This document shows positions 12,462 to 30,490 of a stretch of 64,000 nt of DNA, piece after piece. The translations under genes were made by a program, and so were the position numbers. This DNA comes from Asterella californica. Lineage: Eukaryota; Streptophyta; Marchantiopsida; Marchantiales; Aytoniaceae. Each line of letters starts with the position of its first letter. Positions within the stretch are counted from its first letter, which is position 1. The stretch spans positions 33,774,501-33,838,500 of the forward strand of contig JAYKYS010000002.1 of assembly GCA_036924285.1 (NCBI GenBank), in the 5' to 3' direction. The notes beneath the pieces were generated by a model. That model was not told the DNA's origin and searched no databases. It saw only the letters and a program-made list of their open reading frames with translations.

Positions 12462-12975
12462 AACCATATATTGTGCATGTGGTCACCGACGAAGAGTTGT
12501 CAGTCCGGGTGGGGCTGGATTTTCCTTTATGTGAATGTTTGAGTGTGGAAGGTTATCGTTTGGACTTCTTGTGGTTGGAACCCCTCCATATTCTGCTTCC
12601 TGTTTGTGCGCCGTGTTTGCTTGTGTTGGCGCTTGACTTCCGGAGTGAGTTCACTCCAGTGTGCTGTCGGTAGTGAGGATGGAGTTGTGGACCAGTCAGA
12701 CTACCTTTGTCTCTCTCACGGTGCGATTGGAGTGACGATCAACAGACCATGAGAGGCTGCCTGTGGTGATGGCAGGTACAGGTTGCCCTTATCTTGACTG
12801 TCCTAGTAGGGGATAGATAAACTCAGTAGGAGCGAGGTTAGGTAAGTGGCGGTTACGGTGGTGACGGAGATTGCGACATTCTGGTTGAGGAGTGTGTTAG
12901 CGGGATTCTCTCATCACGGAGTTCTCGGGAGGTTCTGGTGGGGACTTATCGGACAGTGGGTATACACGGAGTGGG
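12462..12975 (+). other. Element B leader, no gene seen
   Basis: The stretch between the end of element D and B's Gag has only short ORFs of no recognisable family. It shows no similarity by eye to B's 3' terminal repeat (29981-30490), so it is more likely untranslated leader than LTR. Confidence 0.4.
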
Positions 12976-14807
12976 GTGAGGTATCGACTACCTACACCAT
13001 TACCGTCGGTTGTTCCAGAAGACGAGTCAGACGCAGACAGCGTGTTTTCTAGTGGTGAGTCTAGTGTCGCCACACCGTTGTTGTGGGACATGGACGAGAT
13101 CTATGGGATCACAAAGGGGCCTCGACGTTACTCGGATACAATTGATATCATTGAGCTGGATGACTTCATCCATGAGTTCGACAGTTGGTGCGATCTGCAG
13201 CAGATGCGGAACCCACAGCTGTTTACACTCTTCATGGCGTGGGAAGGGTTTGTTCCAACACTTGGAGGGACCACCGATGGACGATTATCATGAGTTCAAG
13301 CGAGATTATAGTGTTGAGATCGAGTTGTGGAGACAACATTGGTCTCCCAACTATGTTTCTATCACTACTGATGTAGTTTCGGGAGGCGTAGCAGTGATAC
13401 ATCCACAGGTGACGGAGTATCTACTATCAGCGGCGCGTCCACAAGTAGTGGAGCAAGTGGAAGTGTGAGCGGGATACCACCCGGGTTTAACCCTGTGGTT
13501 CAATTCTTTCAATGTTTGAGGAAGAACTATCATGGTGTGCGGACTGACAAGTTGAGGAGTCTGCAGGAGTTCCAGCGGAAGACTGGAGAGAGCCTACGCG
13601 AGGCGTTTATTCGCATGAGGCGGTTGATTAACGTTACCCAATGAGTGACGGAAGCACAGGCAGTCCAGTTCTTGTATGGGATACTAGATCGAGAGCTGCG
13701 TAGGAGAGTTAGAGATGCTACTCTCCTTAGAGATACCGCTCCGACGTTGACGGTTGTCTTTGGTCTGGCTGAGCGGATTGAGCTCAACATGGTGGAGGAG
13801 AGGGTGGTGGTTGCTGGTTCAGCAAGGAGAAACCACATGGAGCGACCACCTCTTCTCGAGGATCACATACTACGCAATAGCGTGGTGGTGGTGGTGATAA
13901 GGATCGTGCGGAGCAGTCACGATCTCAGGGAGGTGTTGGAGGATCTTGTGGGCAGAAGCCCATGCCGTCCTTCTCTAGCCAGCAGCAAGCGGGTCCTTGT
14001 TGGACGTGTGATGGTCCTCATCAGCAGAAGGCCTGTCCACAGAGGAGAGGTAGTTATGAGACGTCAAGGACGTCTCAAGCAGTACCTAGGCAATGTGAGC
14101 ATTACGGACGACCTGGTCACAGTAGTGACCGTTGTTTTGATCTCCATCCCGAGTTGCGGCAAGGGAAGGCTGATCGTGGACGAGGCGGAGGAGCTCAAGG
14201 AGGCCTTGGTGGTCGAGCTAGAGGTAGAGATCTAGCACCTGAGAGAGGACCGGTCGGTCCACCGCCTGCTACGACGTCAGAAGCAGGTATGGCTGCTCGG
14301 ATTGAGCAGTTGGAGCAAAGGATAGCTAGTATGGCTATAGCTCAACGGAGATCAGGTGGAACAGAAGCTTCTACGTCTTACGGAGGAGAAGGAGGTGATT
14401 TCGACTTCATGGCTGGCGTGGCGCAGATTGAGGCATCTGCGGCAGTGACTAGAGGTGCAGTACGTGCCTCTGAGCCACGAGGTGCGTCAGTGGAGTTGGA
14501 TCCACAACGCGAGAAGACTAGTAGACAGGTCAGGCTTCCTCAGTCGTTCACGTTATCAGAGACGTTGAGGATCACATCTATGGTTCCTAAACGACATATC
14601 GATGGTGCAGTAGAGTTGGAGGTATCGACATCCCGGAGTGGGTGTGATGTGAGTCCACCCTCGACGTCTGTGGATGCGACGTCGAGATGCGACGTCTGTG
14701 GATGCGACTACATCAATTTTGCGAGCCCCACTATTCTCAACCACGGATATGAGGGCATTGAGTGTCGACTTGGCTCCAGGTCACGCTCAATGAGAGCGAG
14801 GATGTAG
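12976..14807 (+). pseudogene. Element B Gag, broken
   Basis: The Gag sequence passes through several frames. The N-terminal acidic part (EDESDADSVFSS) starts at 12976 and shifts near 13262. The capsid-like segment has NYHGVRTDKLRSL, GESLREAFIRMRR and FLYGILDRELRRRVRDA at 13515-13720, with an in-frame TGA near 13642. From 13962 a 281-residue frame holds two zinc knuckles, CWTCDGPHQQKAC and a damaged CEHYGRPGHSSDRC in which the second Cys is Tyr, then a Gly/Arg-rich stretch and a coiled-coil-like segment (ARIEQLEQRIASMA). These mark a nucleocapsid. The extra frames in this area are shadows. Confidence 0.7.
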
Positions 14808-14855
14808 TTACCTCTAGTGCTGAAGTAGTTCAGCGAGAGACGGTAGACGTGTCTT

Positions 14856-15948
14856 ATGGAATCGAGGATCAGGACAGCTACCAGTGGTACTTGGCAAGCG
14901 ACGGCTGCTAGGTTAGATGAGTTACCAGCTAGGCCGGCGATTGACCGTGTTGGTTTGGCACCAGGTGTGGTGTTGTTGGACAAGAGAAGCGGTATCTTCT
15001 GTTTGGTGGCACCTTCAGGGAAGGTGTATCGACCACATAAGGTCTTGTTAGACTCTGGAGCCCAACCGTTGATGTTGGGAAAGACGGCGTGTATTGATTT
15101 TGGTCTTAAGAAGTCCGAGGTGGAGAGATGTCCATTCCAGTTGCAGACATCTCTAGGAGGATCAGGAGGTACGGCTCTACACATGACACGTGAGATGTTG
15201 ACGGTGAGAGTTCGGTCAGATCATCCCACGGATGGCTCTATGATGAGGGCCAAGGCCATCGTTACAGCCGCAGAGTCTTATGATGTATTGGTTGGAGGTG
15301 CTATGTTATACCCTATGGGGTTCGTGATCGACTATTGGACGGAGACAGCATCTTATAGACCAGGTTGGCAGTCCGGTGAGAGACGAGTGAACCGCTTACC
15401 AGTGCGATTCAGTGCTAGAGTTGAGACGACGGAACCTACACCAGGGATGATGGCATCCGTTGTAAGGTTCAGTTCGGTCATCACTTGGCCGAGCGAGTTG
15501 TTGGAGGGCAATGTCCATGCGGAGGATACTCCGGTCTTTGAGGAGGTGGAGGACATGCCTAGCATGTCTATGTTAGTACCATCTGTCTTGGATGTTCCAC
15601 TCTGGAGTTCGAGTGGAGAGTTACAGCAGTGTGCTGATCAGTTGGTGCAGCAGGCTTGGAGTGAAGTCTTTGTACCACCAGTAGAGGAACAAAGGGTTGT
15701 TCCTGCTACTGGCCTTGTGACCTTATCCCCGTTGGATACGACTCTCATTGTGTGGCAGTATCCAGAGGAGGGTGTATGTGTGCTGGAGCTGTTTGGTGAG
15801 ATCAGCACAGATTTGGCTACGGTATTGCAAGCAGGCATACAAGTACGTCGATACTTGTATGTGGAGAGAGATGAGATTACGAGACGCGTCTCATTGCGAC
15901 ATGTGGCATGTCTGGTGCAGAGATATCTTGAGTTGTTGTCCATATCAG
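14856..15948 (+). pseudogene. Element B protease fused to start of cytosine methyltransferase
   Basis: One frame carries two domains. Residues about 50-150 are a retropepsin: KVLLDSGAQPLML has the DSG catalytic triad, and SYDVLVGGAMLYPMGF is the later strand. After a linker, residues about 300-365 look like the first part of a C5-cytosine methyltransferase: VCVLELFGEISTDLATVL is motif I, the S-adenosylmethionine loop, followed by RRYLYVERDEITRR for motif II. Motif I normally reads FxGGIxTGL-like in this group; here two glycines are Glu and Asp, as expected from G-to-A changes, so cofactor binding is probably lost. Homology to B stops at about 15948, where an A-like fragment is joined. Confidence 0.75.
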
Positions 15949-16913
15949 CATCCATCGGTAGATCTTGAGCTCCTGCATCCCGAAGCTCTTGATAACCTTC
16001 GCTCCTCGAGTCTGTCTCTTGGAAGAAGAACTTCTTTCCCCTGCATTCTCTGAATCTAACCTTCTTTTCTCTTCTAACAACGTTTCGTGTTGATTTTTGA
16101 CAACGTAAGCATGCACCGATAGAGCTTCTATCAGATCCCCCCATCCAGTATCCCTTCTGATCGTAGCAGCTGTCCTCAATAATGTCTCTCGTGTCATCTT
16201 TTCTTTCTGTTTCATGGAGATGAGAGATGATCATAATCCACTCGGCTCAACATGTTCGTTGAAACTCCTCTCAGCTTGATCTTCAACTCTTGTGCCATAA
16301 GTTTCAGCATCCACAATCGCAACCGCTTGCGCTGATAAGTGGTCCTCAATCAACTTCTTCATCCCTTCTCTACCAAAGTTGGTCTGAAGAAGTACGTCGG
16401 TGTCCCTCAATGCTATCTTCCCATCCTTCTAGAAGATCACCCCTTGTTGCAAAATGTCAGTGACTTCCTTGCAATCTCTGCGTGGATGATCAGTACCATC
16501 GCACCAGATACACCGTTGGATCCAGCCTTGCTTCTCAACCGGTTTTGCTCCACTTGTAGACCTCTTCTCTTCCAATCTTGTGAGCTTGATCTGTAGATCT
16601 CGCATTTCACGCAAGACCTCCTCAAGGTTTGAATCATCCTTCTTCGGAGATACTACAAGTGCTTAGACAACTGGAATAGCTGGAGCAACTGGTACTACTT
16701 GTCTAGCAATAGGAACCACTGGTGGGACTACAGGAGCAGATGTTACAGCAGTCGGTGTTGATGTCAGTCTCCTAACATGAACCTTCTCTCGTCTTCGCCC
16801 TCTCTTGGTAAGCAGACCAACAGCTTCCTCAACCTTCTTCCAACTACTGGTCAAGCCATCGTCTTCCTCCGAACCTCCAGAAGAACCTCCAGCTTCTCTT
16901 GCAGCTTCTCTTC
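15949..16913 (-). mobile_element. Fragment of an A-like retroelement (gag/protease)
   Basis: On the minus strand this piece matches element A from about 3580 down to 2590: the capsid end, the Pro/Val repeat (shortened), the zinc knuckle CIWCDGTDHPRRDC, and the start of the protease linker. It has no LTR at either end, so it did not arrive by ordinary integration. In this copy gag and the protease linker are in one frame (RRDTGWGDLIEALSVHAY), unlike element A. Several stops interrupt it. Its left junction with B has a short microhomology (CATCC); its right junction is the inverted repeat at 16914-17032. Confidence 0.8.
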
Positions 16914-17032
16914 TATCACCAAGTGAATGATGCCAACAAACGTAAGATCCTGTGCCCCCAGCAGCATGGTCAGATATTTCGCTGCTGGGGGCACAGGATC
17001 TTACGTTTGTTGGCATCATTCACTTGGTGATA
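16914..17032. repeat. Perfect 52-bp inverted repeat
   Basis: Positions 16914-16965 are the exact reverse complement of 16981-17032, with a 15-base spacer (16966-16980). The right arm is methyltransferase coding sequence just before the motif IAGWPCQ; the left arm is an inverted copy of it joined to the A-like fragment. This looks like the product of a fold-back or template-switch repair event. Confidence 0.95.
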
Positions 17033-17348
17033 GCCGGATGGCCATGTCAAGGTCACACGCGTGCTGAGAGAGGTCAGGGTTTACATGACCCGCGATCTAG
17101 GATGTTCAGGGAGATGTTACGGATCTTACGACATCTCCAGATGCATCAGGTGGATTCTCCAGCGTACATCTTAGAGAACGTTCTTTTGTTGGGTGATGCT
17201 CGTACACAGATGATGACGAGTGTGCACCAAGTGCGGTCTTGGGTTGGACCAGCAGTGTTGTTGGATGCAGCAAGAGTAGAATCTCGTGCACATCGTCCAC
17301 TGTTGTGGTGGACGAACTTGGTACCGTGAGAGGTGCTTAAGCGCGCAC
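16981..17348 (+). pseudogene. Element B cytosine-5 methyltransferase, catalytic part
   Basis: The frame gives the centre of a C5 DNA methyltransferase. VIAGWPCQGHTRA is motif IV with the catalytic Cys of PCQ; LHDPRSRMF follows; YILENVLLLGDAR is motif VI (ENV); GPAVLLDAARVESRAHRP and LLWWTNL match the motif VIII region. Element C is inserted 20 bases after the TGA that ends the frame at 17326-17328. The enzyme would methylate cytosine at C5 using S-adenosylmethionine. The motif II-III part between 15948 and 16981 is missing. The GIxTGL-type motif I and the late motif at 26440-26490 set it apart from host DNMT1/CMT-type enzymes, by inspection only. Confidence 0.8.
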
Positions 17349-18263
17349 TGTAAACCCTCCGCGGTCCTAACGATCAACTACCCCCCGATCTCTTAACCTC
17401 CACGATCGTCATCCACGAATCTGCAACTGTCGGGCCTGTCTCTCACTCAAGGGTCACCTCTGATGGCTTTGATGGAAGCACACCATGAATCTTGAAGGGA
17501 AAAATGCTAAGTTCACTCTCATTCATACACCCACAAACTTATCAACTAAAATCTCCATAATCTCATCCACTAAAATCCTCCATTCTAACGACGTCTCTCA
17601 AGTTCTCACATGCTAAAAATGTCCCACACTCTCTATATTACTCAAGTTGTCATTACGACAATGTGAAAACAAGGATGAGGAGCTCTTCTCTACTCCTCTA
17701 TTTATACATTCTAGGTTTTTACTTTGGTACCCTCGGTAACTCAGCCGTAACTACTTTTACCGGGTTTTACTAAGATATTACTTAAGGTAAAAGCATTGAT
17801 CACATGGGCTTTTTACCTTTTCACATGGGCTTATTCCTTCAAAGTCAACAACTTCTAGAAGGATTCTGGAATATTCTCAAGGAATCTCGAATTTCCACCC
17901 CCCCTCTACACTAGGACCCACTAAAAAGGAAACATGTGGAATCTCTTCTTGTTTTTAATGCCCACAAAGTCCACAACTTTAATCCAACCACTAATATCAA
18001 GTCAAAAAGGAGATAAGAGATACTTTCCACCTCCTTTCTACCTTTTAGACAAGATGACAAGATAGTAGTGCTCACTCTTTAGCAAATATCTGAATTCTGC
18101 CAAAAGTACAGCTAAGTTTAACCATAACTAACTTTTAGCTAGTCATGACTAACTTGATACCTCCTAAAAGTACTTTGGCAGCAAATAAACATTCTCAACC
18201 CTTAGTTATAACTAAACACCTTACTAATTGACAAACTTCCTATGTGTAACATAGGTCGTTACA
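17349..18263 (-). repeat. Element C 3' LTR
   Basis: On the minus strand it begins TGTAACGACC after the polypurine tract and ends GGTTTACA. It carries a TATA box (TATAAATAGAG, minus strand, 17696-17706) and matches the other LTR over its whole length. Confidence 0.95.
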
Positions 18264-18276
18264 TTTTACCCCCGGA
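18264..18276 (-). other. Polypurine tract of element C
   Basis: On the minus strand TCCGGGGGTAAAA sits directly before the LTR start TGTAACG and directly after the pol stop TAG (18279-18277), so it is the expected site of plus-strand priming. Confidence 0.85.
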
Positions 18277-21200
18277 CTAAATTTTCGCTCCGTCCTCGGA
18301 GTGAAGAGAGAACTTTCGTTGATGAAACAACTTCAACTTGTCATGATTTACCCGATCGAATCTCCTTCCTCCCAGCTCCTGAAGGTCATATGTGAAGTTG
18401 CTCCACACCTTATCTACAACAAAAGGACCAAAATATCTCGGAAGAAACTTCTTCCTAGCCCTCTTGAATCTGATAGCATCATACAACATAACCCAATCTC
18501 CGACTTGAAAAGGTTTTACCTCCCTCTTGCCCAACCTTTTGTCGTAACTCTTCTTTTGATACGCTTGAGCTCGTTCCATCCGGATCATCGCTATCGCTCG
18601 GGTCTCTTCCAACTCCATGAGTTGCTCCCTTCTTGATCTGACCACGTCTTCTCCTCTCGACCTCTTCAACTTTCGTTGAATAGTTTGAAAAGTATCCAAT
18701 TCGAATTGGATGGGCAACTTGGACTCCACTCCATAAACCAGTCGAAATGGAGAGTACCCAGTAGAAGTCTTTGTTGTCGTTCGGTACTCCCATAAGATGG
18801 CATGTAGCCTCTTATCCCAAGTATGTTTCGCAGTCTCAACACCAGCATCTTTGGTGAGCATCATACAAAGTGTAAGATTGGTCTTCTCCGCAAGACCATT
18901 AGCATTTGGCTTGTATGAGGTCGTTACTCGTGCCTTGATAGAAAAGTGTTGTAGCATAGCAGTAGTCATGCTCCCTACAAACTCTCCTCCTCTATCTGAG
19001 ACCAACTCTAACGGACATCCAAATCTTGTGATGATCCTCTCCCATAAGAATCTACCGACTTCTGTTTCATTGGTCTCTCTCAAAGGTCTAGCCTCTACCC
19101 ACTTGGTACAATAGTCAGTGGCGACTACAATGTATCTATTGCCTCGAGGTGTCTTATTAAGAGGACCTACAAAGTCAATACCCCACTTCTCAAATGGTCC
19201 TAACACGGGAATTGATCTTAACGGAGGTGTTCTAGTAGACTTCAGAGCAAATGCTTGACATACGTCGCAAGTTTTGCAATAGTCTAAACACTCTTTGAAA
19301 ATCCCTCTCCAGTGATAACCCGCATCCAAAATCTTGAAGGCTGTTATCTTACCAGCAAAGTGACCTCCGCAAACAGTTCCGTCGTGAAACTCGTGCATTA
19401 GCTTGAATGTCTCCTTCTGACCAACTGCTCTCCTTAGTAACCCATCTGCTCCTTGATGAAACAAAATTCCCTCTACTATGGTGTAAGGTTTGCATCTCTT
19501 GATCAACGCGTTACGTTCTCGGGTATGCATACCTTCCGGAAAAGAGCCATCTGCAAGGAAACTCCAGATTTCCTTATACTCGTCCGGTATCTCCTCAATG
19601 CTTGTGATGGTCATCAGATGCTCGTCTGGAAACGAATCGTCAAATGGTTCTTCTCCCTCATCATCATAAGCCCTCGACAAAAGATCAGCATTCGCATGCT
19701 TTTTCCCTGGTCTATCTTCGATCACATAATCGTATTCTGTTAGAAGGATCTTCCAACGAGCAATACGACCTTCGGCATTAGGCTTATTAAAGATATACTT
19801 TAAAGCCTTGTGATCTGTGACTATGGAAAATTTCCCTCCTAGCAAGTAATGTCGGAATTTCTTCAATCCAAAGATCACCGCTAATCCTTCTCGTTCAGTC
19901 ACGGAGTAATTCTTCTCCGCTGGAACCATCTGCCTACTAGCATAAGCTATAGGATGATCATGCCCATCTCCATCTAGCTGACTTAATGTACATCCGATTG
20001 CTACATTGGAGGCATCCGTATACAGAATAAATGCTTTACTCCACTCAGGTTTAGCAAGTATAGGAGCTGTCACCAATGCCTTTTTCAGCTCCTCAAATGC
20101 TTCCTTTGCCTTCTGATCATGCACTATCAAGTCAAAATCAACTCCCTTCTTCATGTACATAGTCAAAGCTATTGCTTTGTTTGAGAAGGAAAAGACAAAC
20201 CTACGATAATATCCAACCATGCCAAGAAACTGCCTCAACTTTGTCAAGTTGATCGGAAATGGAAGATCCACAATCTTCTTCACCTTTTCAGGATCTACCG
20301 CAATCCCATTCTTGGAAATGATGTGCCCTAACAGCAGACCTTCTTCGCAGCCAAAGATGCACTTCTCTGGATTCAGAGAAGCGTTAGCTTGCTCCAACCG
20401 CTGCAGAACTTTGATCACATGATCAAAGTGGTCCTCCTTTCTTCCGTACACACAGAAATCATCAATGAAATCACGAACAAACTTTCCTATGAATGGTTCG
20501 AACACCTTGTTCATGAACCTCTGAAACGTGGCCGGAGCATTACACAGTCCGAATGGCATCACTCGAAATGCAAATGTTCCCCAAGGAGTAGTGAAAGTAG
20601 TCAACTGCTGGTACTCCTGTGCTATCTTGATCTGGTTGTATCCACTATAACCATCACCAAAGCTGTACCACTCATGACCGACAACTTCCTCCAAAATCTC
20701 ATCTATAAATGGTAGAGGATAATAGTCCTTCTTGGTAACTGCATTCAGCTTCTTATAGTCTATGCACACTCGCAGCTTACCATTCTTCTTCTTGACAATC
20801 ACAATGGGTGAAACCCATTCTGAGTTCTCCACCTCATAGATGAAACTCGCCTCCTTCAACTTGTCTATCTCCTCCTTGACCATCATTGCCGTTGTGGGAT
20901 TGACCCTTCTCTGCTTCTGTCGAACTGGTCTTGCGTGCTCCTCCAATTCGATTCGATGAGTCTCGAGAGTCACCTCCTTCAAATCCTTGTAGCTGAAAGC
21001 AAACACATGGATATATTTTCGAAATATATCTAGGAATCTACTTTTCTCCTCTTGAGTGACATTGATACCAAACTTCAAGGTAGAGAGTCTTCTCACAATC
21101 TCTGCCTCACTCAACTCTTCTTTGTCAGGATCTTTCTCCACTGCTGGTCGAGGCAACAAGTCAATAGCACTAAGCTGATGTAATGATTCATCTCGACCAC

Positions 21201-23163
21201 ATCCTTCGTCCTCAGACGAGGATTCTTGATCGTAAGAATCTCCGGTATCTACTTCTGAGACACTCTGATCGTCCTCCGTATCAGATTCCCAGTAGTCACT
21301 AGTGGGTCTATCAGAGTCAGAAGTCACAACTCCAACACCCGAGAGAGGAACTATCACTCTATGATCTCTAGGCCCAATCCGTAAGTATCCCTTGTGCCAC
21401 CTATCCGTGGTGCGCACAGCTCTCAACCAAGGCCTACCTAGGAGCAAATCATAACTAGAGTCCTTTAACACTTGAAAGGACATCAATGTTTGAACTCCCA
21501 TCACAGACACGACCACCTTCTCTAACACGCCAAGAGGTCTTACCCGTTGCTTGTTAGCCATCCCCACGACAATGCTAGCCGGGCGAGTTGGTTCCATCCC
21601 CAACTTCTTCATCAATCTCTCCGATATGGCGTTTACAGCCGACCCTCCATCCACCAATACGTCAGAGACGTAGTGACCATTCAACCGGACTTCAATCTTT
21701 GAAGCCCTAGTGCATACCTCTGAAGCATGCACATCCACCACACCAACTCCCACAGACTTTGACGTCTTGCTCTTGGGTTTCTTCTTCTTGCTTCTCTTAG
21801 AACTCAGTCCTCCTCTGAGTTCCCTTCGTAAGCTGGGATTAAGTGCGATCAGTTGTCCAACAGTGATGTTGGCTTTCTGAGCACCCACATCTTCAACCAC
21901 ATCATATCCCGCTTGGGAAGATGAAATGGTGAAATCCGCCATCCCCAGCTTCCTTCTTGGCTCCCTTGGTGTACTCGAAACATTACTCGAACGAGTGCTT
22001 CTACTAGCTGATTCCTCCATGAAAACCGGTTCATCAGAAAATCGAGTTCTTTTCCTTTCTTGAGCTAAAAGCTCCACCGGTGCATGAGAAGAGTTTGAAC
22101 TCTCTCCTTTCTCGTAGATGGGATCTCGCACGACATCGATAGTAGCCACCCCCTTGTCTCGTCCTTGTGATGGATTTCCTCCACCCACATTCATTCTGAC
22201 AGCTTCGGCACTTCTTGCTCCGTTGTTAGGACAATTTCGCTGAAAATGAGAACCTCCACACGTCCAACAAGTGATTCCTCCAAAGTTACCTTGGTTGCCT
22301 CCAAAGTTACCTTGATTTCCTCGGTTGGGATTGTTGTCGTAACCTCTTTGACCTCCTCCTCCACCTTTGTTCCTCCATTCTCGTAACTGTACCACGTTTA
22401 TCTTGAGATCCGCAAGAGTGTCAGTGATGCTCTTCAGCTCGGCATGAAAATCAGAGGTGGCAGTAGACATCGTTGTTGGGACAAACGGTCTTGGCACCAC
22501 CGTTGGAGTAGGAGCTGACGTTGAAGCAATCACCAATTGTGATGGTGCAGGTGCGATCGTTGTGGCTACACCAGGAGTCGGAGTTGACACCAGAGCAGCA
22601 TGATGAGGTTGGATGATATCTCCTTCATCCAAACTCTCTTCCATATTTGTCGCTATCTTGATGGCCTCCGCTTTGGTTGCTGGCTTCTCGTACCTCACTT
22701 GGGTTCGAATTGAAGGTCTCAACCCTCCCACCAAGTTCTTGGTCAGCACTGCTCCAATCCCCGCCATCGTTAGTTCCACATTGTCTCCACTCTTTCGTAG
22801 GACCGTCCGAAACCGTTGCTCCAACTTATCCACCCTTTCGGCATATTGCCGAACTTTCTCGTCGTCACGTTGCTTCAAATGAGTAAGCTCCACCATGAGC
22901 TTCTCATAACTCTCTTCTGGAAGAAATTCTTCGATGAGTGCATTACTCAACGTCTCCCATGTGTCCTCAACTGCACCAGGTGTCTGGCTCTTCACTCGGT
23001 CTTCATACCACGTAAGAGCAAAATCTTCTAAAAACTCTGGCAGTAACAACACCCATTCTTCCTTCCTTCTCACGTTGTTTCCGATGCAACCCCTTTTGAA
23101 GTCTCGAACAAACGGTTCTACATCTTCATTGTCCTTCCCATGAAACACGGGTAGCTTTCCCAT
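18277..23163 (-). CDS. Element C Gag-Pol polyprotein, intact
   Basis: A single 1628-residue frame holds all core domains. Gag: capsid-like region at residues about 10-130 (LTWYEDRVKSQTPG, KLMVELTHLKQRDDEKV). Zinc knuckle CWTCGGSHFQRNC near 310, with one residue fewer than the usual C-x2-C-x4-H-x4-C. Protease near 510: VLVDGGSAVNAIS (DGG at the triad) and LLLGRPWL. RT: WVSPIVIVKKKNG, FGDGYSGYNQIKI, LCNAPATFQRFM and FVRDFIDDFCVYG (FIDD in place of YxDD). RNase H: FILYTDASNVAIGCTL to HANADLLSR. Integrase: H-H-C-C zinc domain, core acids in GIDFVGPL, LVSDRGGEF and NGLAEKT, then GPFVVDKVW. No chromodomain. The integrase style suggests the Tat/Athila side of Ty3/gypsy, at low certainty. An in-frame stop lies shortly upstream of the ATG. 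Confidence 0.92.
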   Translation of the reverse strand: MGKLPVFHGKDNEDVEPFVRDFKRGCIGNNVRRKEEWVLLLPEFLEDFALTWYEDRVKSQTPGAVEDTWETLSNALIEEFLPEESYEKLMVELTHLKQRDDEKVRQYAERVDKLEQRFRTVLRKSGDNVELTMAGIGAVLTKNLVGGLRPSIRTQVRYEKPATKAEAIKIATNMEESLDEGDIIQPHHAALVSTPTPGVATTIAPAPSQLVIASTSAPTPTVVPRPFVPTTMSTATSDFHAELKSITDTLADLKINVVQLREWRNKGGGGGQRGYDNNPNRGNQGNFGGNQGNFGGITCWTCGGSHFQRNCPNNGARSAEAVRMNVGGGNPSQGRDKGVATIDVVRDPIYEKGESSNSSHAPVELLAQERKRTRFSDEPVFMEESASRSTRSSNVSSTPREPRRKLGMADFTISSSQAGYDVVEDVGAQKANITVGQLIALNPSLRRELRGGLSSKRSKKKKPKSKTSKSVGVGVVDVHASEVCTRASKIEVRLNGHYVSDVLVDGGSAVNAISERLMKKLGMEPTRPASIVVGMANKQRVRPLGVLEKVVVSVMGVQTLMSFQVLKDSSYDLLLGRPWLRAVRTTDRWHKGYLRIGPRDHRVIVPLSGVGVVTSDSDRPTSDYWESDTEDDQSVSEVDTGDSYDQESSSEDEGCGRDESLHQLSAIDLLPRPAVEKDPDKEELSEAEIVRRLSTLKFGINVTQEEKSRFLDIFRKYIHVFAFSYKDLKEVTLETHRIELEEHARPVRQKQRRVNPTTAMMVKEEIDKLKEASFIYEVENSEWVSPIVIVKKKNGKLRVCIDYKKLNAVTKKDYYPLPFIDEILEEVVGHEWYSFGDGYSGYNQIKIAQEYQQLTTFTTPWGTFAFRVMPFGLCNAPATFQRFMNKVFEPFIGKFVRDFIDDFCVYGRKEDHFDHVIKVLQRLEQANASLNPEKCIFGCEEGLLLGHIISKNGIAVDPEKVKKIVDLPFPINLTKLRQFLGMVGYYRRFVFSFSNKAIALTMYMKKGVDFDLIVHDQKAKEAFEELKKALVTAPILAKPEWSKAFILYTDASNVAIGCTLSQLDGDGHDHPIAYASRQMVPAEKNYSVTEREGLAVIFGLKKFRHYLLGGKFSIVTDHKALKYIFNKPNAEGRIARWKILLTEYDYVIEDRPGKKHANADLLSRAYDDEGEEPFDDSFPDEHLMTITSIEEIPDEYKEIWSFLADGSFPEGMHTRERNALIKRCKPYTIVEGILFHQGADGLLRRAVGQKETFKLMHEFHDGTVCGGHFAGKITAFKILDAGYHWRGIFKECLDYCKTCDVCQAFALKSTRTPPLRSIPVLGPFEKWGIDFVGPLNKTPRGNRYIVVATDYCTKWVEARPLRETNETEVGRFLWERIITRFGCPLELVSDRGGEFVGSMTTAMLQHFSIKARVTTSYKPNANGLAEKTNLTLCMMLTKDAGVETAKHTWDKRLHAILWEYRTTTKTSTGYSPFRLVYGVESKLPIQFELDTFQTIQRKLKRSRGEDVVRSRREQLMELEETRAIAMIRMERAQAYQKKSYDKRLGKREVKPFQVGDWVMLYDAIRFKRARKKFLPRYFGPFVVDKVWSNFTYDLQELGGRRFDRVNHDKLKLFHQRKFSLHSEDGAKI

Positions 23164-23376
23164 CTTGTAACTACTCTTTCTACTCTTCTAATCGTCGTGC
23201 AATAACTACTCGCTAAAAGAGTACGAACATCACCAATTCCATTCGCGAATAATCTACCATAGGTAAAATGAAAGGAAATGGTTGTAACAACACCTCTTGT
23301 GCCATCTCTTCTCCCAAGGTAATCATGAGTCTGAGTCGCATCACCGCCTTCTCCACCATTCGAATGACGATCTCCA

Positions 23377-23868
23377 TCACAACTCAACCGAGTCCTCTTT
23401 TGAAGTCGACAACTTCTCCGTCTCAGCTCTTTGAGTCTCGTCCAACTTCTCGACTACTGACGTAAGTAGGGCGGCCACATCGATGCACTTGTGTCCTCTT
23501 GATAGATCACCCACTCCACAACTTGGACAAGGATCTTCGCCTAGAAGATGAATTGGCGCTGGTGACGATGGACCCACTCGAAGACTTAAATCAGTAAACT
23601 CCCGCTTCCCTTTAGCTCTCTCGGTTCTGATTCTAGTTGGACAATTCACTACTTTATGTCCCAACCCTCTACAGAAATAACACCACAAGTCGATTTCTAC
23701 TCTTCTCCTCGGAGATTCTACTTGAGGTTTTGTACTAGGGTTCTCAAACTCAACGATAATCTCTTTCGAGCTCTCTCCGACGCTTACTATGACATCTAAA
23801 CCTTGAGGAAGGTTTCTAAGTCTAACTTTCCAATCTTTTGAATTTCCACTCATGTTGCACCTTCTCAA
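23377..23868 (-). CDS. Element C accessory zinc-knuckle protein, function unknown
   Basis: This 163-residue frame lies between the 5' LTR and Gag-Pol, in the same direction. It has a zinc knuckle CYFCRGLGHKVVNC (C-x2-C-x4-H-x4-C) near residue 63, preceded by a basic patch, and a second Cys/His cluster CPSCGVGDLSRGHKC near 113. The C-terminus is acidic. The knuckle suggests nucleic-acid binding. A further 89-residue frame (23387-23118) overlaps its end and reaches Gag-Pol, but I see no family in it. The protein may be a separate accessory product, or part of a longer Gag made by splicing or frameshifting. It is not a domain of the Gag-Pol frame, which has its own knuckle. Confidence 0.6.
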   Translation of the reverse strand: MRRCNMSGNSKDWKVRLRNLPQGLDVIVSVGESSKEIIVEFENPSTKPQVESPRRRVEIDLWCYFCRGLGHKVVNCPTRIRTERAKGKREFTDLSLRVGPSSPAPIHLLGEDPCPSCGVGDLSRGHKCIDVAALLTSVVEKLDETQRAETEKLSTSKEDSVEL

Positions 23869-24535
23869 CCATTAAGTGGACAAAATATCATAGAGGAAAA
23901 TAATTCTACATTACTTTCTTAACTCTTCCGAGCTTTATATTAGAAATCGTGCATTATATATGCTATACACGAAATAAAATCTAATCTAATATTAACTATC
24001 AAAGATATGATCCTCCTCACCCTCGTTTGTACTCATCACAACAGACATCTTGAACTCACTCTTGTAAGGATCCAACTCTATTTCACCAGGAGCATTCGTG
24101 GCCTCCATAGTGAATGATGCTTTAAACTCGACTTTCTTCAAATCTGTGCCAATTGTCGCGGAAGCTTCTTCGTTAGAGTAAAGAGGGCACCCCAAGTGCT
24201 ATAGATGCGTGTTCGTAACTCATCTATACTTAACTTGGGCTTCTCCGTCTCTGTTCGAACTCCTAAACGTCTCTTCTTCCACCTCGTCATTCGAACTGGA
24301 TTCCCCATGACGTATCTTCAAGACCTCCTTGTATGCCGAAACGTATCTCTCTTAGTTGGTAAGAGATCTCTCCAAGATTTTTGTGGTCTCCAGTAGCTCA
24401 ACCTCCAAGCTACTAAATCATGAAGTTTCAACAGAAACTTCCCTAATCAGAAGAGATGGTGATGACTGTACAAATTTTCAGAGAACTGAAATTTGTATAT
24501 TTTCACTTCCCTCATGGTTGTCAACCCCCTCCACT

Positions 24536-24892
24536 TTGAAAAATCCTTTCTCCCTCTTCAGACCTCATCTTCTCATGATTTCTTTTGTCCTGGATAGCTT
24601 ATCAGCCACTCTAAAACACTGGAAAGTTTCTCAGGAAAATAAAATTCACAGAAAATCTAACACTGACTGTAAACTTTTTCCAGAGAACAGAATTCCTCAA
24701 CTCTCACGAATAGACCCCCTCAATTTTGAAAAATCATTGCTCCCTCTCTAGACCACCTTTTCCTATGATTTCTTTTGTCTTAGATAGGTTATCAGCCAAT
24801 CTAAAACACTGGAAAGTTTCACAGGAAAATAAAATTCACAGAAAAGTTGACAGCGACTGTACAAATTTTCCAGAGAGCAGAATTTCTAAACT
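24536..24892. repeat. Tandem repeat in element C leader, about 185 bp unit
   Basis: Two diverged copies follow each other at about 24530-24705 and 24712-24890. Both contain TTTGAAAAATC, ATGATTTCTTTTGTC, CTAAAACACTGGAAAGTTTC and AGGAAAATAAAATTCACAG. Traces of the same end sequence (GACTGTACAAATTTTCAGAGAA) lie at 24465. It is in the 5' untranslated leader. Confidence 0.75.
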
Positions 24893-25174
24893 CACAAATT
24901 TCTCTCCTCTAATAACTTTTCTCTCCTCCTTTCTCTACAACTCTTGTTGCACCTTCTTTCAACTCTCCTCAAACCCTTTCTAAGTGAACAAGATGTAAAG
25001 AATGACTTCGAACGCGTCATATATCACTACGGGATACACGAAAGGTTCTAACGTTGCTAACATCGCGTTAGCTCTCTCTCCTCCCAACGTTCTCTCCATG
25101 TGCTCTCTCATAATCTCCTTTCGTCGAATATAGAACTGAACTCTAAACATCGTTCAACGATCCCTTCAAGTGAG

Positions 25175-25192
25175 GTCCCGGCAACGGAACCA
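25175..25192 (-). other. Primer binding site of element C (tRNA-Glu)
   Basis: The plus strand reads GTCCCGGCAACGGAACCA, which is the 3' end of plant cytosolic tRNA-Glu as I know it, including CCA. The site lies 4 bases inside the LTR boundary, as expected for minus-strand priming of an element read on the minus strand. Confidence 0.85.
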
Positions 25193-25196
25193 AAAA

Positions 25197-26111
25197 TGTA
25201 AACCCTCCGCGGTCCTAACGATCAACTACCCCCCGATCTCTTAACCTCCACGATCGTCATCCACGAATCTGCAACTGTCGGGCCTGTCTCTCACTCAGGG
25301 GTCACCTCTGATGGCTTTGATGGAAGCACACCATGAATCTTGAAGGGAAAAATGCTAAGTTCACTCTCATTCATACACCCACAAACTTATCAACTAAAAT
25401 CTCCATAATCTCATCCACTAAAATCCTCCATTCTAACGACGTCTCTCAAGTTCTCACATGCTAAAAATGTCCCACACTCTCTATATTACTCAAGTTGTCA
25501 TTACGACAATGTGAAAACAAGGATGAGGAGCTCTTCTCTACTCCTCTATTTATACATTCTAGGTTTTTACTTTGGTACCCTCGGTAACTCAGCCGTAACT
25601 ACTTTTACCGGGTTTTACTAAGATATTACTTAAGGTAAAAGCATTGATCACATGGGCTTTTTACCTTTTCACATGGGCTTATTCCTTCAAAGTCAACAAC
25701 TTCTAGAAGGATTCTGGAATATTCTCAAGGAATCTCGAATTTCCACCCCCCCTCTACACTAGGACCCACTAAAAAGGAAACATGTGGAATCTCTTCTTGT
25801 TTTTAATGCCCACAAAGTCCACAACTTTAATCCAACCACTAATATCAAGTCAAAAAGGAGATAAGAGATACTTTCCACCTCCTTTCTACCTTTTAGACAA
25901 GATGACAAGATAGTAGTGCTCACTCTTTAGCAAATATCTGAATTCTGCCAAAAGTACAGCTAAGTTTAACCATAACTAACTTTTAGCTAGTCATGACTAA
26001 CTTGATACCTCCTAAAAGTACTTTGGCAGCAAATAAACATTCTCAACCCTTAGTTATAACTAAACACCTTACTAATTGACAAACTTCCTATGTGTAACAT
26101 AGGTCGTTACA
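25197..26111 (-). repeat. Element C 5' LTR with promoter
   Basis: This is the upstream LTR of C. On the minus strand a TATA box TATAAATAGAG lies at 25554-25544, about 560 bases into the LTR, so transcription probably starts near 25515. It is almost identical to 17349-18263 and ends ...GGTTTACA next to the primer site. Confidence 0.95.
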
Positions 26112-26500
26112 GCACATGATGGAATGAGACGACTAGCGCATCTCATAGTTGATTGCATCTTGGATGCAGGACGACGATCTCAAGTAGTGAGAGTCGTCGA
26201 TAGGTCATCCATGACAGTGGTGAACCTAGTGGGACAGTCCATGGTAGCGTTACCCACTTTGGTAAGCTTTCCAGCGTCACATGCTTACAGAGATGGAGGA
26301 CCTAGACTTGTGTGGGATACTCAATTACGACAGTTGGTGGAGCCCAATGTCGATGAGAGAGAGCGAGCGATGGGTTTCACTACGGGTACAACGACAGTAG
26401 CTTCGGTGTCGGAGGCTTCACGTCGTCAAGTATTGGATCAACCAATGGACTTGAATTGCTTGACATGGATTCTTAGCCTTGGATTGACTGAGCAGCGTCG
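26112..26500 (+). pseudogene. Element B methyltransferase, C-terminal part
   Basis: After the element C insertion the methyltransferase sequence resumes. The frame from 26124 gives ILDAGRRSQVVRVVDRSS, PTLVSFPASHAYRDGGPRLVW, VDERERAMGFTTGTTT, then SEASRRQVLDQPMDLNCLTW. These match the target-recognition and motif IX-X region of C5 methyltransferases: an RAMGF-type block and a final helix that normally reads RxxLGxAMD. Here the Gly is Asp. The frame continues to 26768 through a linker towards reverse transcriptase. It joins the part at 16981-17348 across the GCAC duplication. Confidence 0.75.
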
Positions 26501-26761
26501 GATGCGATCGACGGGTGTTACTGCTCGAGCACTCTTGAGCTCTTTGCCTACCGGGTCGGTGGAGACAAAGACTGGGGGCGAGGCACGTAGAGTTCGTCAT
26601 CCTTGGACATCATGGGATGTCGTAGGAGAGAGTGTGGAGCTTGCAGCTAGAACTGCAGAAGTTTTTCGCACAGTAGCGTGGAGGTTGTTGGTGGTGAGCA
26701 GAAGGAAACTGCTCCAGAGGCTGCAAGATAGCAGTCAACGACTTCGTCTTCTATCTCTAGC

Positions 26762-28243
26762 ATGGTGACAGAGGATACTTGGGAGCCGGAGATTGGACCC
26801 AAGCTTATAAGAGAGGAGAGACGAAGAGTTCAAAGATTCCTGAAGAGCTACATGAATTATTTTGTCTTCAGTATGAAGGATTTGGGTACCTTGAAGGGAC
26901 CTGGTATACGGATCGACTTGACTAATGACACGTCGATCTTTTGACGTCCTTACAAGTACAGTGACATGGAGAGAGCTGATCCAGAGTAGGACTCAAGACT
27001 TGTTGGAGACTAGGTTGGCGGAGATGTCGCATGGAGAGTATGCATCTGCCACAGTTATGCCAGCCAAGAAGGATATGTATGGCAACTACACCGATAGACG
27101 GATGTGTGGGGACTACCGTCTTATCAATCGACAGATGAAGTTCGATAAGTATGCCATGCCGACACCTGAGGAGATCTTTGATGCAGTGGGGCATGTGAAA
27201 GTCTTCAGTACTTTGGATCTTCGAGCAGGGTATCATCAGTTGCTAGTGAGAGAAGAAGATAAGTCCAAGACAGCATTCTGAGGAATTGACTCTCACGACA
27301 AATATTGTTTGTATCAGTGGCGATTCTTACCATTTGGGTTGAAGAACGCCCCAGCTGAGTTCCAAAGGGTGATGGACAGAATCCTAGCACGATTGGATTT
27401 TGTCAGATGTTATATTGACGACATCTTAGTCTATAGTGCTACAGTGGAGGAGCACGAGAGACACTTACGAGATGTGTTCGAGCGGTTGAGAGCTCATGGA
27501 TTGAAGTTACACCCTGGGAGTGTAAGTTCTTCCAGGAGTTGGTAGAGTATCTGGGCCACACCATCTATCCAGGTGGATTGGGTGTTCAACAGACAAAAGT
27601 TGAGGCTATTACACGTATCTCACGCCCCACAGATGTGAGTCGAGTTCGAGCATTTGTTGGTTTGGCGAACTTCTATCGTCGGTACGTGAAGGGGTTTAGT
27701 GCAATTGCGAAGCCGTTGACAAAGCTGATGAAGGTGGACCATGAGTGGCAGTGGGAAGATGAGCAGGAGCGAGCTTTGGTAGAGCTCAAGGATAGGTTGA
27801 CATCTGCTCTCATCTTGAGGAGATCCGTTAGGGGGCGTCCTTTCCAATTGCACACCGATTGGAGTACGTTGGGGCTTGGAGCAGTGCTGACTCAGCATGA
27901 TGATGAGAAAAAAGGAGTTCATGGTGGCGTATGCCAGTCGCTCCAACAATTCGACGGAGGTGAGGTACAGTTCGTATGAGGGGGAGTGTTTAGCTGCAGT
28001 GTGGGTTGTTGCACACTTTCGATGTTATCTGTTTGGGAACCCCTTTACTCTCATCACAGATCACCAGCAGCTCAAGTGGTTGATGGAGTCCGACAAGCTA
28101 ACAGGGAAGCTTGCACAATGGGCTCTGATCTTACAAGAGTATGACTTCCAGGTAGTGCATAGACCTAGAGTTGCAAACTTAGATGCCAATGGGTTGAATC
28201 GCAACCCGTGCACGAGTCAGCAAGATCAGACTGAGGCTCGATG
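26762..28243 (+). pseudogene. Element B reverse transcriptase and RNase H, broken
   Basis: The RT region is readable across several frames: RMCGDYRLINRQMKFDKYAMP, FSTLDLRAGYHQL, then a TGA near 27279 where a Trp is usual (FxGID), then FLPFGLKNAPAEFQRVMDR and the active site CYIDDILVYS near 27412. A frameshift near 27520 leads to VEYLGHTIYPGG and RAFVGLANFYRRYVKGF. RNase H has QLHTDWSTLGLGAVLTQ, shifts near 27905, and continues through YSSYEGECLAAVWVV and LITDHQQLKWL. The YIDD motif and domain order are standard Ty3/gypsy, unlike the FLDD type of A and D. Confidence 0.85.
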
Positions 28244-28559
28244 ACATGATAAGGTTGATGAGGAGATAGTGCCAGGGTGGCATGCATCTGCCTTTCTTTG
28301 TGTGTTGGCCATGAACTCTAGTATGGAGGGCCAAGTCGTAACTTTTTCTGGTCAGAGAGTAGATGATGAGTCTCCAGATCATGAGGGTGGAGATGGTGTT
28401 CCAGACCAGCGAGATATCCATGATGATGTTACCGTGATGGAGTATCTATGTACTAGTGTGGTAGTAGGCACAGTAAGTGCCAAGAAGCGAGATCGTGTCC
28501 TTCAACGAGCGAAGAGATTTCGACGAGAAGAACGACATGTACTTCGAGTGTGAGGCGAT

Positions 28560-29825
28560 GAGAGGGTATGGATAGTGCCACATCCATCTCAAAGGGCACA
28601 GTTAGAACGACATGTCCATGAGGAGTTGAGACATTTTGGAGTGAAGCGTACGCATAGCTTACTCCGTGGACAGTATTGGTGGTGTGATATGCACGTCGAT
28701 GTGCAACAGTTTGTCATATGATGTGTGGTTTGTGATCGAGTACGAGCATCATTTAATGCTCCTACTTCTCAGTTACACCCCTTACCGATTATGGGGTTGG
28801 GTTACCGTTGGAGTTTGGATTTTACGGGACCCTTACCGTTGACCATACGTCACCACCGGTATGTGTTGGTGACGGTGGAGCACTTCTCCAAGTGGATTGA
28901 GTTGGTGGCATTATCAGACAAGGCGAGTGAAGGGACGGCGTACGTGTTCTTAGATCGAGTACTGAGTCGTTTTGGAGCACCAGCTGAAGTGCTGACAGAC
29001 CAAGGTACAGAGTTGCTTGGTGAGTTTCATGCCTTGTGTGACCAGGCGCTGATTGATCATCGGACTACATCTCGAGATCATCCTGAAGCGGATGGTTTGA
29101 CGGAGAGGGTAGTTCAAACGGTAAAGAGAGGATTGCGTAAGTATGGCTTGCAGAAGGATCACTTGGGAGACTAGGATGTGCAGTTACCATGGTTGACTAT
29201 GGGTTACCGTTTCAGTCGACAAGCGTCTTTGACTTCCTTCTCACCGTATTTTCTATTGTATGACCGAGATCCATATATCTTCGGCCATTCGTCGTGATTC
29301 TGCTGAGGTGTTGGACCTTGATGACCCAGATATGTGAGTGAGAGCATGTTCTCAACGAGCAGAGACATTTCGGAGAGTTATGCCTATGGCTTTTGAGAAC
29401 CTAGCGATTGCTCATCCGAGGAGGAGGTTATCGACCGTCGATTCGCATGTTTCATCTTGACGATTATATCTATCTACAGCAGATCGCACCGACAACGTTG
29501 GATGTGACCGCAGGACGCACTATTTTACGAGTGCAGGAGGTGTTACCTTCTGGAGTACTCATGTTAGAGGATCGTGATGGTGTTGTGTGGAAGGACCATG
29601 TGCGTAATTGTGCACCATGTCATCTTCCCAACATTGATGGTACTGTTGATCCAAGCTTAGCAGTTGTACGCGCGGGCTTGAGGTGTATGTTGTGTGTGTC
29701 TGCTGGTGGAGCAGCCCGTATGTTGGTGTGTGATGGTTGTTTCTAGAGGTTGGCACATGTCATGTTTGACTCCACCTCTCAGTGTCGTTCCTACTGGACG
29801 GTGGGTTTGTCCTCGATGTATATAG
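28560..29825 (+). pseudogene. Element B integrase with C-terminal PHD finger, broken
   Basis: The zinc domain starts near 28610 (HVHEELRHFGVKRTH, then CVVCDRV, with a TGA before CVVC). The catalytic core has WSLDFTGPLP, EVLTDQGTE and HPEADGLTERV, giving D, D and E, and ends near a TAG at 29172. The C-terminal module reads APTTLDVTAGRTILRV and GVVWKDHVRNCAPCHLPN. It is followed by a PHD finger at 29684-29819 and a stop at 29823-29825. The integrase would insert the element's cDNA; the finger could steer it to marked chromatin. At least four stops or shifts break the frame. Confidence 0.8.
29684..29819 (+). other. PHD zinc finger at the end of element B Pol
   Basis: The Cys4-His-Cys3 pattern is complete: CMLC, then VCDGC, then WHMSC, then WVCPRC, with the Trp two residues before the last Cys pair as in histone-reading PHD fingers. 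One extra base after the second pair (near 29746) shifts the frame and makes a TAG, so the finger is split over two frames in this copy. PHD fingers usually bind histone H3 tails; the target here is unknown. Confidence 0.8.
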
Positions 29826-29916: not shown

Positions 29917-29944
29917 CCAGATAGCTCCATATGGAGCTATCTGG
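29917..29944. repeat. 28-bp perfect palindrome
   Basis: CCAGATAGCTCCAT is followed directly by its reverse complement. It lies between B's pol stop and polypurine tract, in what would be the 3' untranslated RNA. Confidence 0.9.
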
Positions 29945-29965
29945 AGTTAGAGGGACCTAACCGTC

Positions 29966-29980
29966 AATTAAGGGGACGAT
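29966..29980 (+). other. Candidate polypurine tract of element B
   Basis: AATTAAGGGGACGAT precedes TGTGGTACAC, a plausible LTR start. The purine run is short, so this is tentative. Confidence 0.5.
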
Positions 29981-30490
29981 TGTGGTACACTGGTGTATGT
30001 GTATGACATCGTCCATGTGTTATGTGTATGTGTGGTGTATCTGTGACAGCGATGTATGTTGTGTAGCGATGTATATGCGCACGACAGCTGTCACGTCAGT
30101 TTGGCACCTCGGTTAGGTTGACCGAGTGCGAAGTGATGCATCTCGGTAAGATCGTTAGTGCCGTTAGGACGAGTTGGTAGGAGAGCTCACTAGGGGTATA
30201 CTTCGCAGGTAGGGCTTGGAGGTCTTAGTTCTTCGAGTTGAGCCTTCAAGCTTTAGGCTATGGTGGATAGTCTAGTTGAGTGTAACCCGGATTCTCTTCG
30301 TGCTTAGAGTGGGTTTGGCTTGACAGTTTGTGAGTAATCTTTGTTGTAGTGTTGGAGATGATAATTTCTCTGTTCAGATTGATTGTGATACACTGGTGTA
30401 TGTGTATGACATCGTCCATGTGTTATGTGTATGTGTGGGATACCTCTGACAGCGATGTATGTTGTGTAGCGATGTGTATGTGCACGACAC
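29981..30490 (+). repeat. Terminal repeat of element B with internal 106-bp duplication
   Basis: A 106-base unit starting TGTGGTACACTGG and ending GCACGACA occurs at 29981-30086 and again at 30384-30489, with about ten differences. The first copy follows the candidate polypurine tract; after the second the sequence becomes AT-rich and unrelated. Either the LTR spans both copies (about 509 bp, with its start duplicated at its end), or these are two short terminal repeats. The 5' LTR is not in the window to decide. Confidence 0.55.

Follow-up and report, generated by a model that had tools for sequence, protein, structure and literature searches.

A Ty3/gypsy retrotransposon family in Asterella californica that encodes a DNMT3-type methyltransferase and a PHD finger

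In this study, we found that a Ty3/gypsy element of Asterella californica encodes a DNMT3-type DNA methyltransferase (DNMT) and a PHD finger. Both are under purifying selection, and their linkage holds in full-length copies as well as in distant relatives; the proposal of the first-pass annotation that one mobile element carries both domains was thus confirmed. Because methylation normally silences transposons, an element with its own de novo-type DNMT and a histone reader on its integrase may turn silencing marks into tools. According to the available part of a 2019 review, land plants such as tracheophytes have no transposon-encoded DNA methylases (PMC6338049). With many young long-ORF copies in a single genome and with relatives in the tractable model liverwort Marchantia, the family provides a land-plant testbed for why transposons carry methyltransferases.

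The copy in the window (the whole stretch of 64,000 nucleotides that was analysed), here called element B, has the following features.

12341..15949, plus strand: first segment, with putative Gag (frames broken) and protease and the N-terminal part of the DNMT including motif I (blastn, 92.1% to full-length copy L013; ORFs)
14847..15949, plus strand: VLLDSGAQ protease motif and DNMT motif I, both in ORF 14847-15965 (assigned by motif, without a Pfam match)
15950..16968, no strand assigned: insert 1 within the DNMT, an antisense gag-like stretch (gap and inverted match against L013; minus-strand ORFs)
16969..17348, plus strand: DNMT motifs IV (PCQ), VI (ENV) and VIII (PF00145, 2.5e-6; 95.3% to L013)
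17349..26111, minus strand: insert 2 within the DNMT, which looks like a complete gypsy element (ORFs, repeats, L013 comparison)
26112..26728, plus strand: DNMT C-terminal part and ORF1 tail (ORFs; L013 comparison)
26729..26731, plus strand: TAG followed by CAGTCA, the ORF1/ORF2 stop (comparison with full-length copies)
26732..27542, plus strand: linker and reverse transcriptase (RT) with YIDD (RVT_1, 0.00049, under the cut-off in the window copy)
27437..28241, plus strand: RNase H (PF17919, 1.8e-12)
28554..29294, plus strand: integrase, H2C2 and DDE core (PF00665, rve, 1.7e-13)
29684..29822, plus strand: PHD finger, in two frames here and whole in full-length copies (ORFs, Pfam)
29979..30086, plus strand: repeat B1, with the purine-rich tract before B1 (repeat and L013 comparison)
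30089..30380, plus strand: repeat A2, first letters TGTCACGTC (L013 comparison)
30381..30489, plus strand: repeat B2, last letters GCACGACA, the right end of the element (repeat and L013 comparison)

The domain order proposed earlier (DSG protease, DNMT, YIDD RT, RNase H, integrase and a PHD that runs to the stop at 29823) was borne out by ORFs, motifs and Pfam. The motifs of Gag and protease were also present, but the Pfam scan gave no match to either in the window copy or in the ORF1 proteins of two full-length copies, and the start of the element, previously placed at 12462, was moved to 12341 by homology to L013. Compared with L013, the window copy lacks 1.33 kb at the start of the element, and with it repeat A1. 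Its DNMT is interrupted twice (15950-16968 and 17349-26111), its frames are broken at further sites, and its motif I is altered at two glycines that are kept in 20/20 long-ORF copies. The PCQ, ENV and VIII motifs sit in ORF 16946-17326, which matched PF00145 with 27.6 bits (cut-off 22); the longer piece of the PHD scored 18.7 bits against a Pfam cut-off of 24, and the PHD of full-length copies scored 42 bits. The end of insert 1 is a 53-nt inverted copy of the element's own DNMT sequence (16913-16965), and insert 2 has an ORF of 1628 aa (18277-23163) and terminal repeats that are identical across the 300 bp compared. The window copy is a dead, decayed member of a recently active Ty3/gypsy family.

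At least 150 integrase matches, all with at least 92% identity and the window's own counted, were scored from 16098 candidates, and a lone artefact was rejected because of these many copies in the genome. The copies resemble one another closely, and the family is young. The location of the DNMT between protease and RT had been set beforehand as a test, and the DNMT was in the expected place in 8/8 copies picked by integrase. The linkage of PHD to integrase also held, with a PHD match downstream in 31/31 best-scoring copies; 6 of these 31 scored copies had TGA stops in the integrase-PHD part. A PHD match followed the integrase in 18/20 copies chosen for long ORF1 and, in a 1.5-kb view, was present in 13/20 copies chosen by DNMT irrespective of ORF length (one of the 13 being a 22-residue part and two being split across two frames).

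In full-length copies, ORF1 encodes a putative Gag and protease and the DNMT3 and ends at a TAG, after which RT, RNase H, integrase and PHD follow in the same frame. The LLDSGA protease motif was found in 20/20 long-ORF copies and CCHC-like motifs were recognised by eye; in the relative P0006, PF13650 was matched at 0.0012, weaker than its cut-off. The ORF2 of L013 matched the Ty3 polyprotein at 3.3e-99, its RT-RNase H being of the Ty3 type, and the Pfam scan of full-length copies placed the integrase after RNase H (rve 9.7e-13, H2C2 1.1e-16). The TAG and CAGTCA after the DNMT were identical in 17/17 copies printed, a context that is predicted to be a readthrough signal of the plant-virus type. 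Because the TAG groups the DNMT with Gag and the PHD with Pol, only the readthrough product would join both. The earlier idea of a writer and a reader on one polyprotein therefore stands in that both are encoded, but the conserved in-frame TAG between them leaves a shared product to readthrough only. The proposed methylation of the element's own copies or of target sites and the proposed insertion guided by histones are predicted functions.

We give an even chance to a model in which the DNMT, made at Gag level, methylates the element's own cDNA while the PHD steers integration to silent chromatin. Translation would mostly stop at the TAG, so that the DNMT would be made at the level of Gag and would enter the particle together with the cDNA, where it would methylate the new DNA of the element, with CG as the likeliest target. 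RT and the integrase with its C-terminal PHD would come from the less frequent readthrough product, and this finger, as one of the H3K4me0 type (for H3 without methylation at lysine 4), would tether integration to chromatin without H3K4 methylation, a silent and usually DNA-methylated target. Methylated arrival in silent chromatin would do little harm to the host and might escape recognition as foreign.

The PHD finger matches the H3K4me0 type in its kinship to the KDM5, CHD4 and BHC80 fingers and in having no cage tryptophan, and binding of this kind is predicted. Readers of H3K4me3 carry a cage tryptophan at that position, where an invariant glycine was found in all 12 aligned fingers. MLL3/4 fingers were at the top of the profile search, so kinship does not fix the binding preference; much of the list consisted of the fingers of KDM5A/B, CHD4, ATXR5, BHC80 (PHF21A), BAZ2A/B, UHRF1 and AIRE, which we take to be mostly H3K4me0 readers. 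The MLL3/4 matches are consistent with another reading, which we consider rather unlikely: the DNMT only protects or marks the cDNA, against recognition as foreign or against degradation, and the PHD is a general nucleosome tether with no mark preference. The glycine in place of the cage tryptophan and the many presumed H3K4me0 readers in the list argue against it, and the place of the DNMT, which varies among lineages yet is always inside the polyprotein in the proteins examined, argues for it. Some relatives have the order RT-RH-DNMT-IN-PHD, and in these and in P0026 the DNMT is in frame with Pol; in Marchantia, P0001 and P0007 each carry DNMT and RT in one annotated protein. For the model of cDNA methylation with PHD-steered integration, these relatives and P0026 mean that Gag-level dosage is not essential across the whole group.

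The DNMT, RT and integrase trees (12-14 sequences) concurred in separating a DNMT-before-RT group from a DNMT-before-integrase group. The DNMT3A branch fell within these element groups with a support of 62, a value that does not choose between one capture with relocation and two captures. P0024 and P0025 are PHD gypsies with no DNMT in the same frame; their DNMT may be absent, or the sequence may be only the portion downstream of a stop. Viral contigs searched with short patterns of P0026 gave no match, and no protein named as Klebsormidium was among the matches returned.

The DNMT belongs to the DNMT3 family by its DNMT3-like sequence and fold and its canonical motif order, motifs I, IV, VI and VIII being ascending in 20/20 long-ORF copies and followed by motif X in L004. 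A DRM (rearranged) type was rejected because the motif order is not permuted and profile and fold favour DNMT3, and a bacterial type was rejected on motif order, profile and fold. The first structure model covered the entire P0006 protein and was set aside for its low quality (pLDDT 35.7). A footprint of self-methylation in CpG content was looked for and not seen: CpG o/e was 0.75-0.76 in the copies vs 0.72 in the flanks, with no sign of self-methylation above background. The C-to-T differences between L013 and element B (CG 7.8%, CHG 9.9%, CHH 6.2%) were not concentrated at CG. The CpG ratio, the C-to-T spread, the TGA stops in 6/31 copies and a selective constraint on the DNMT that is weaker than that on RT were counted against the model of cDNA methylation and PHD steering. 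It is improbable that the DNMT works in trans, on the chromatin of the host or on competing elements, instead of on its own cDNA; the DNMT sits on the ORF1 product, which is expected to be abundant, could be freed by the protease and is encoded by many copies, but CpG content near the copies is not unusual. It is very improbable that DNMT and PHD were captured from a host as passengers and persisted by chance during the burst of a single young lineage, as the close copies, the weaker constraint on the DNMT and the PHD gypsies P0024 and P0025 would allow, because pN/pS was 0.20 and 0.09, the four motifs persist in all 20 long-ORF copies, and the pairing is retained in relatives with DNMT 35-43% identical. 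The ORF1 tail had few synonymous changes (pN/pS 3.5 on 34 changes), and a search for an overlapping second frame there found no open alternative frame.

The element is a gypsy by its enzymes and not a canonical LTR element, since its ends are not a terminal LTR pair: the repeats were arranged as A-coding-B-A-B in 10/12 extended copies. A 4-bp target duplication was exact in 8/10 copies and had one mismatch in 2/10. In L013 and L008, the Pfam matches across both ORFs included rve and no tyrosine recombinase (PF00589), and a DIRS element was rejected on this absence and on the target duplications. Such split repeats with DDE-type target duplications challenge the usual tie of these repeats to tyrosine recombinases. 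We tentatively suggest, at somewhat less than an even chance, a DDE-integrase retrotransposon that integrates from circular cDNA and, with a Gag-side DNMT3 writer and an integrase-borne H3K4me0 reader, reaches silent chromatin already methylated. Reverse transcription that starts at the tract before B1 and runs to the end of A1 would produce a linear DNA whose LTR is B-A, and repair would join its ends into a circle. The integrase would then open the circle at the palindrome GACAGCTGTC, which is the B1/A2 joint, within one B-A unit, and insertion with a 4-bp duplication would restore A-coding-B-A-B. The indel rate at the A2/B2 joint was compared with that at two other joints; 3/6 differences were single bases. 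No primer-binding site was recognised by eye after A1. L009 has the form A-coding-B with an exact 4-bp duplication; it was not taken to prove that a circle with one LTR had integrated and was not counted, because recombination between B1 and B2 would yield the same form. Flanks resembling other window elements were seen in 5/10 copies, a sample too small and a comparison too narrow to show targeting.

Chromodomain gypsies (chromoviruses) carry a histone reader at the integrase C-terminus and have ordinary LTRs, and they are not known to encode a methyltransferase; the present family shares the place of the reader, with a PHD instead of a chromodomain. Vertebrate DNMT3A combines a DNMT3 catalytic domain with an ADD zinc finger reading unmethylated H3K4, but it is a host enzyme, whereas in the present family, which is mobile, a stop codon separates DNMT and finger. 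According to the available part of PMC5890265, KnitGypsy-Dnmt3 of Klebsormidium nitens likewise combines gypsy domains with a DNMT3-type domain that is not rearranged and evolves under purifying selection, and has a DIRS-like repeat arrangement (Fig. 4 legend). Its DNMT is in the Pol ORF, whereas ours is on the Gag side of the TAG in 17/17 copies, and the text available there on KnitGypsy-Dnmt3 does not contain the word PHD or describe target duplications or repeat joints (PMC5890265). The Klebsormidium DNMT had no activity in yeast, a result that its authors call inconclusive in the text available (PMC5890265) and that was also counted against methylation of the element's own cDNA. As far as the available parts of PMC2836005 go, Hydra Ginger1-9_HM, which also has Ulp1, similarly places a PHD after a gypsy-like DDE integrase, and Ginger1 elements end in TGT and duplicate 4 bp of their target; Ginger1-9_HM, however, is a DNA transposon without RT or DNMT, and the duplicated sites are CCGG or CCGT. 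SymbioDIRS-Dnmt3 of Symbiodinium, in the same available text of PMC5890265, shares the DNMT3-type domain in a retrotransposon polyprotein and the A-coding-B-A-B repeats, but it has a tyrosine recombinase where our family has a DDE integrase and 4-bp target duplications; its DNMT methylated CG in yeast.

The domain order that the first-pass annotation had read in element B, a Ty3/gypsy retrotransposon at 12462-30490 of the window with a DNMT3-type DNA methyltransferase (DNMT) and a PHD finger, was confirmed by open frames and Pfam.

Features of the window copy of element B
14847-15965: open frame with the protease DSG motif and DNMT motif I
16946-17326: DNMT motifs IV, VI and VIII (PF00145, 2.5e-6)
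Following, in this order (open frames, Pfam): DNMT C-terminus, RT, RNase H, integrase (rve, 1.7e-13), PHD finger

The window copy is dead. Aligned to L013, a full-length copy from the same genome, it matched at 12341-15949 (92.1%), 16969-17348 (95.3%) and 26112-30489 (92.9%), and the first 1.33 kb, including repeat A1, was missing. Its DNMT is split by an antisense gag-like piece and another gypsy element, its PHD finger is spread over two frames, and two motif I glycines, kept in all 20 fetched long-ORF copies, are altered. At the end of insert 1 (15950-16968), 53 nt of the neighbouring DNMT sequence are repeated in inverted orientation; the resulting hairpin resembles a product of template-switch repair, and approximately 27 nt of element B are absent at the joint. 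Copies L008 and L016 lie beside DNA from the gypsy family to which insert 2 belongs; as insert 2 in turn interrupts element B, each family is found nested within the other. Another gypsy element at 5800-11011 is CpG-depleted (o/e 0.38 versus 0.75-0.77 in the DNMT element).

The element B family is real and apparently recently active, and its domain parts are established at the sequence level. In the 516.7 Mb assembly, the PF00145 search gave 1250 candidates, of which 123 were scored, all above the cut-off; four of these, starting at profile position 1-3, may be host genes. With an integrase query, the best 150 of 16098 candidates were scored, and all of them, window copy included, had at least 92% identity; by our count, 43 of the 150 had an unbroken 1041-aa frame with no stop flagged. 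When the P0026 polyprotein, encoded on a JGI contig, was used as the query, DNMT-RT-RNase H and then integrase-PHD were collinear in all 31 copies scored, which is not a family-wide fraction because these were the best-scoring copies. A TAG was present in the first part of all 31 and was the sole stop there in 26, and TGA stops occurred in the second part of 6. The claimed linkage of the PHD finger held, with a match in 18 of the 20 copies picked for a long ORF1 and, in a 1.5 kb view, in 13 of 20 DNMT-list copies picked regardless of ORF length (1 partial, 2 in two frames). The DNMT was likewise present in all 8 copies picked by integrase (8 fetched of 20 planned).

Among the 20 copies picked for a long ORF1, ORF1 (Gag, protease, DNMT) was 1367-1381 aa in 16, and ORF2, which lies in the same frame and codes for RT, RNase H, integrase and PHD, was uninterrupted over 1038-1041 aa in 12. 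Gag and protease had no Pfam match in ORF1 of two full-length copies and are assigned by motif only. Short patterns of DNMT motifs I, IV, VI and VIII were found in 20/20 long-ORF copies, and longer patterns of IV, VI, VIII and X in 19, 20, 19 and 18. The stop between the ORFs was TAG followed by CAGTCA in all 17 inspected copies (of 20) and in the window copy. This fits UAG_CAR_YYA, described as a consensus for efficient readthrough (PMC3542737). The TAG may be read through; if so, the DNMT would be made with Gag, and PHD-integrase would be a minor product. The related proteins P0004, P0006, P0008 and P0011 stop approximately 60-90 residues past the DNMT domain, and these short C-terminal ends are compatible with a Gag-DNMT-stop plan. 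Marchantia P0001 and P0007 have DNMT and RT in one annotated protein, with no stop evident.

Selection was evaluated by uncorrected Nei-Gojobori counts on disjoint pairs (ORF1, 8 pairs from 16 copies; ORF2, 6 pairs from 12 copies), and both sets were picked for open frames, which tends to lower the ratios.

pN/pS by domain
ORF1: Gag 0.24; protease 0.23; DNMT 0.20
ORF2: RT 0.06; RNase H 0.11; integrase 0.10; PHD 0.09 (9 changes only)

ORF1 residues 1311-1370, just upstream of the TAG, had 3 synonymous versus 31 non-synonymous differences in the 8 pairs, and no second open frame was found there.

The PHD finger of L013 matched PF00628 above the cut-off (6.7e-11), and its best PHD-chain matches were KDM5B and KDM5A. 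A profile of 12 element fingers placed MLL3/4 at the top, followed by CHD4, ATXR5, KDM5, WSTF, DPF3 and BHC80, with BAZ2, UHRF1 and AIRE lower down. H3K4me3 readers use a tryptophan at a set position, where the element fingers have an invariant glycine. Given the KDM5-type kinship and this glycine, the PHD of the element B family is predicted to read H3K4me0, which is described as bound by KDM5B PHD1 (PMC4225485).

The DNMT-piece search gave 20 proteins, 14 from Marchantia polymorpha and 1 from the liverwort Calypogeia fissa. From this, the window probably comes from a bryophyte, and most likely from a liverwort. P0026 has DNMT-RT-RH-IN-PHD in a single frame; the order is RT-RH-DNMT-IN-PHD in P0018, P0019, P0027, P0028 and P0029, and P0020 shows the DNMT-IN-PHD part of it. 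The internally deleted P0022 (Marchantia) keeps DNMT pieces and PHD, and the PHD-bearing frame of the gypsies P0024 and P0025 contains no DNMT. Between the liverwort-type copy L004 and the relatives with other orders plus P0026, identity was 35-43% for DNMT and 38-59% for RT, and the DNMT, RT and integrase trees, with the root not fixed, gave one common main split. P0027, P0028 and P0029 have an extra C-terminal domain past the PHD with a DP-F/W-G motif; one of the three matched the D12 N6-adenine methyltransferase family (E 0.0029), and a PDB search with the domain gave no convincing match. DNA methyltransferases of two kinds may therefore be present in these elements. P0027 also has two 2A-like motifs (DxExNPGP, a ribosome-skipping signal) at residues 297-304 and 372-379, between protease and RT.

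Earlier work describes DNMT3-carrying gypsy elements in Klebsormidium nitens, with DIRS-like repeats and gypsy domains in a figure legend (Fig. 4, PMC5890265), and some DNMT3 located in retrotransposons of streptophytes and dinoflagellates (PMC12344493). In yeast, no methylation by the KnitGypsy DNMT was seen, a result its authors call inconclusive (PMC5890265). The text of that paper does not mention PHD. In titles and abstract openings, mainly open-access, we found no prior report of a DNMT-bearing gypsy with a PHD finger or of such liverwort elements.

Split direct repeats in the order A1 (~294 bp)-coding-B1 (~109 bp)-A2-B2 were found in 10 of the 12 copies with added upstream sequence. The first bases of A are TGTCACG and the last of B are CACGACA; where B1 meets A2 inside the element, the sequence is the palindrome GACAGCTGTC. 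All ten of these copies are flanked by 4-bp target duplications, perfect in 8 and with a single mismatch in 2 (the chance of one exact match is about 1 in 256). The insertions appear young, given 97-100% identity between A1 and A2 and between B1 and B2. Among the 20 copies plus the window copy, 18 had both B repeats; in 18/18 the B1-A2 joint was kept, with at most 3 of 19 positions mismatched, and B1 was preceded by a purine tract. The A2-B2 joint was alike in 12/18 and had an indel in 6 (L001, L006, L007, L014, L016 and the window copy); three of the six differences were single bases.

In a proposed circle model, reverse transcription would yield linear DNA that starts and ends with B-A, ligation of these ends would make the A2-B2 joint, where repair would leave small indels, and the circle would be cut open at one B-A palindrome to give the observed A-coding-B-A-B form. 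Two observations count against this model: none of the 12 extended copies has the alternative opening, A-B-A-coding-B, and no primer site could be recognised downstream of A1. With moderate support, we infer self-methylation of the cDNA, H3K4me0-guided integration and integration from circles. L009 (upstream stretch L024) had A-coding-B with no second repeats and an exact 4-bp duplication, CCTC, and the right end of L003 was rearranged. In L018 (upstream stretch L031), A1 is joined straight into gag, with approximately 2 kb missing; its ends are preserved, as is the 4-bp duplication CATG.
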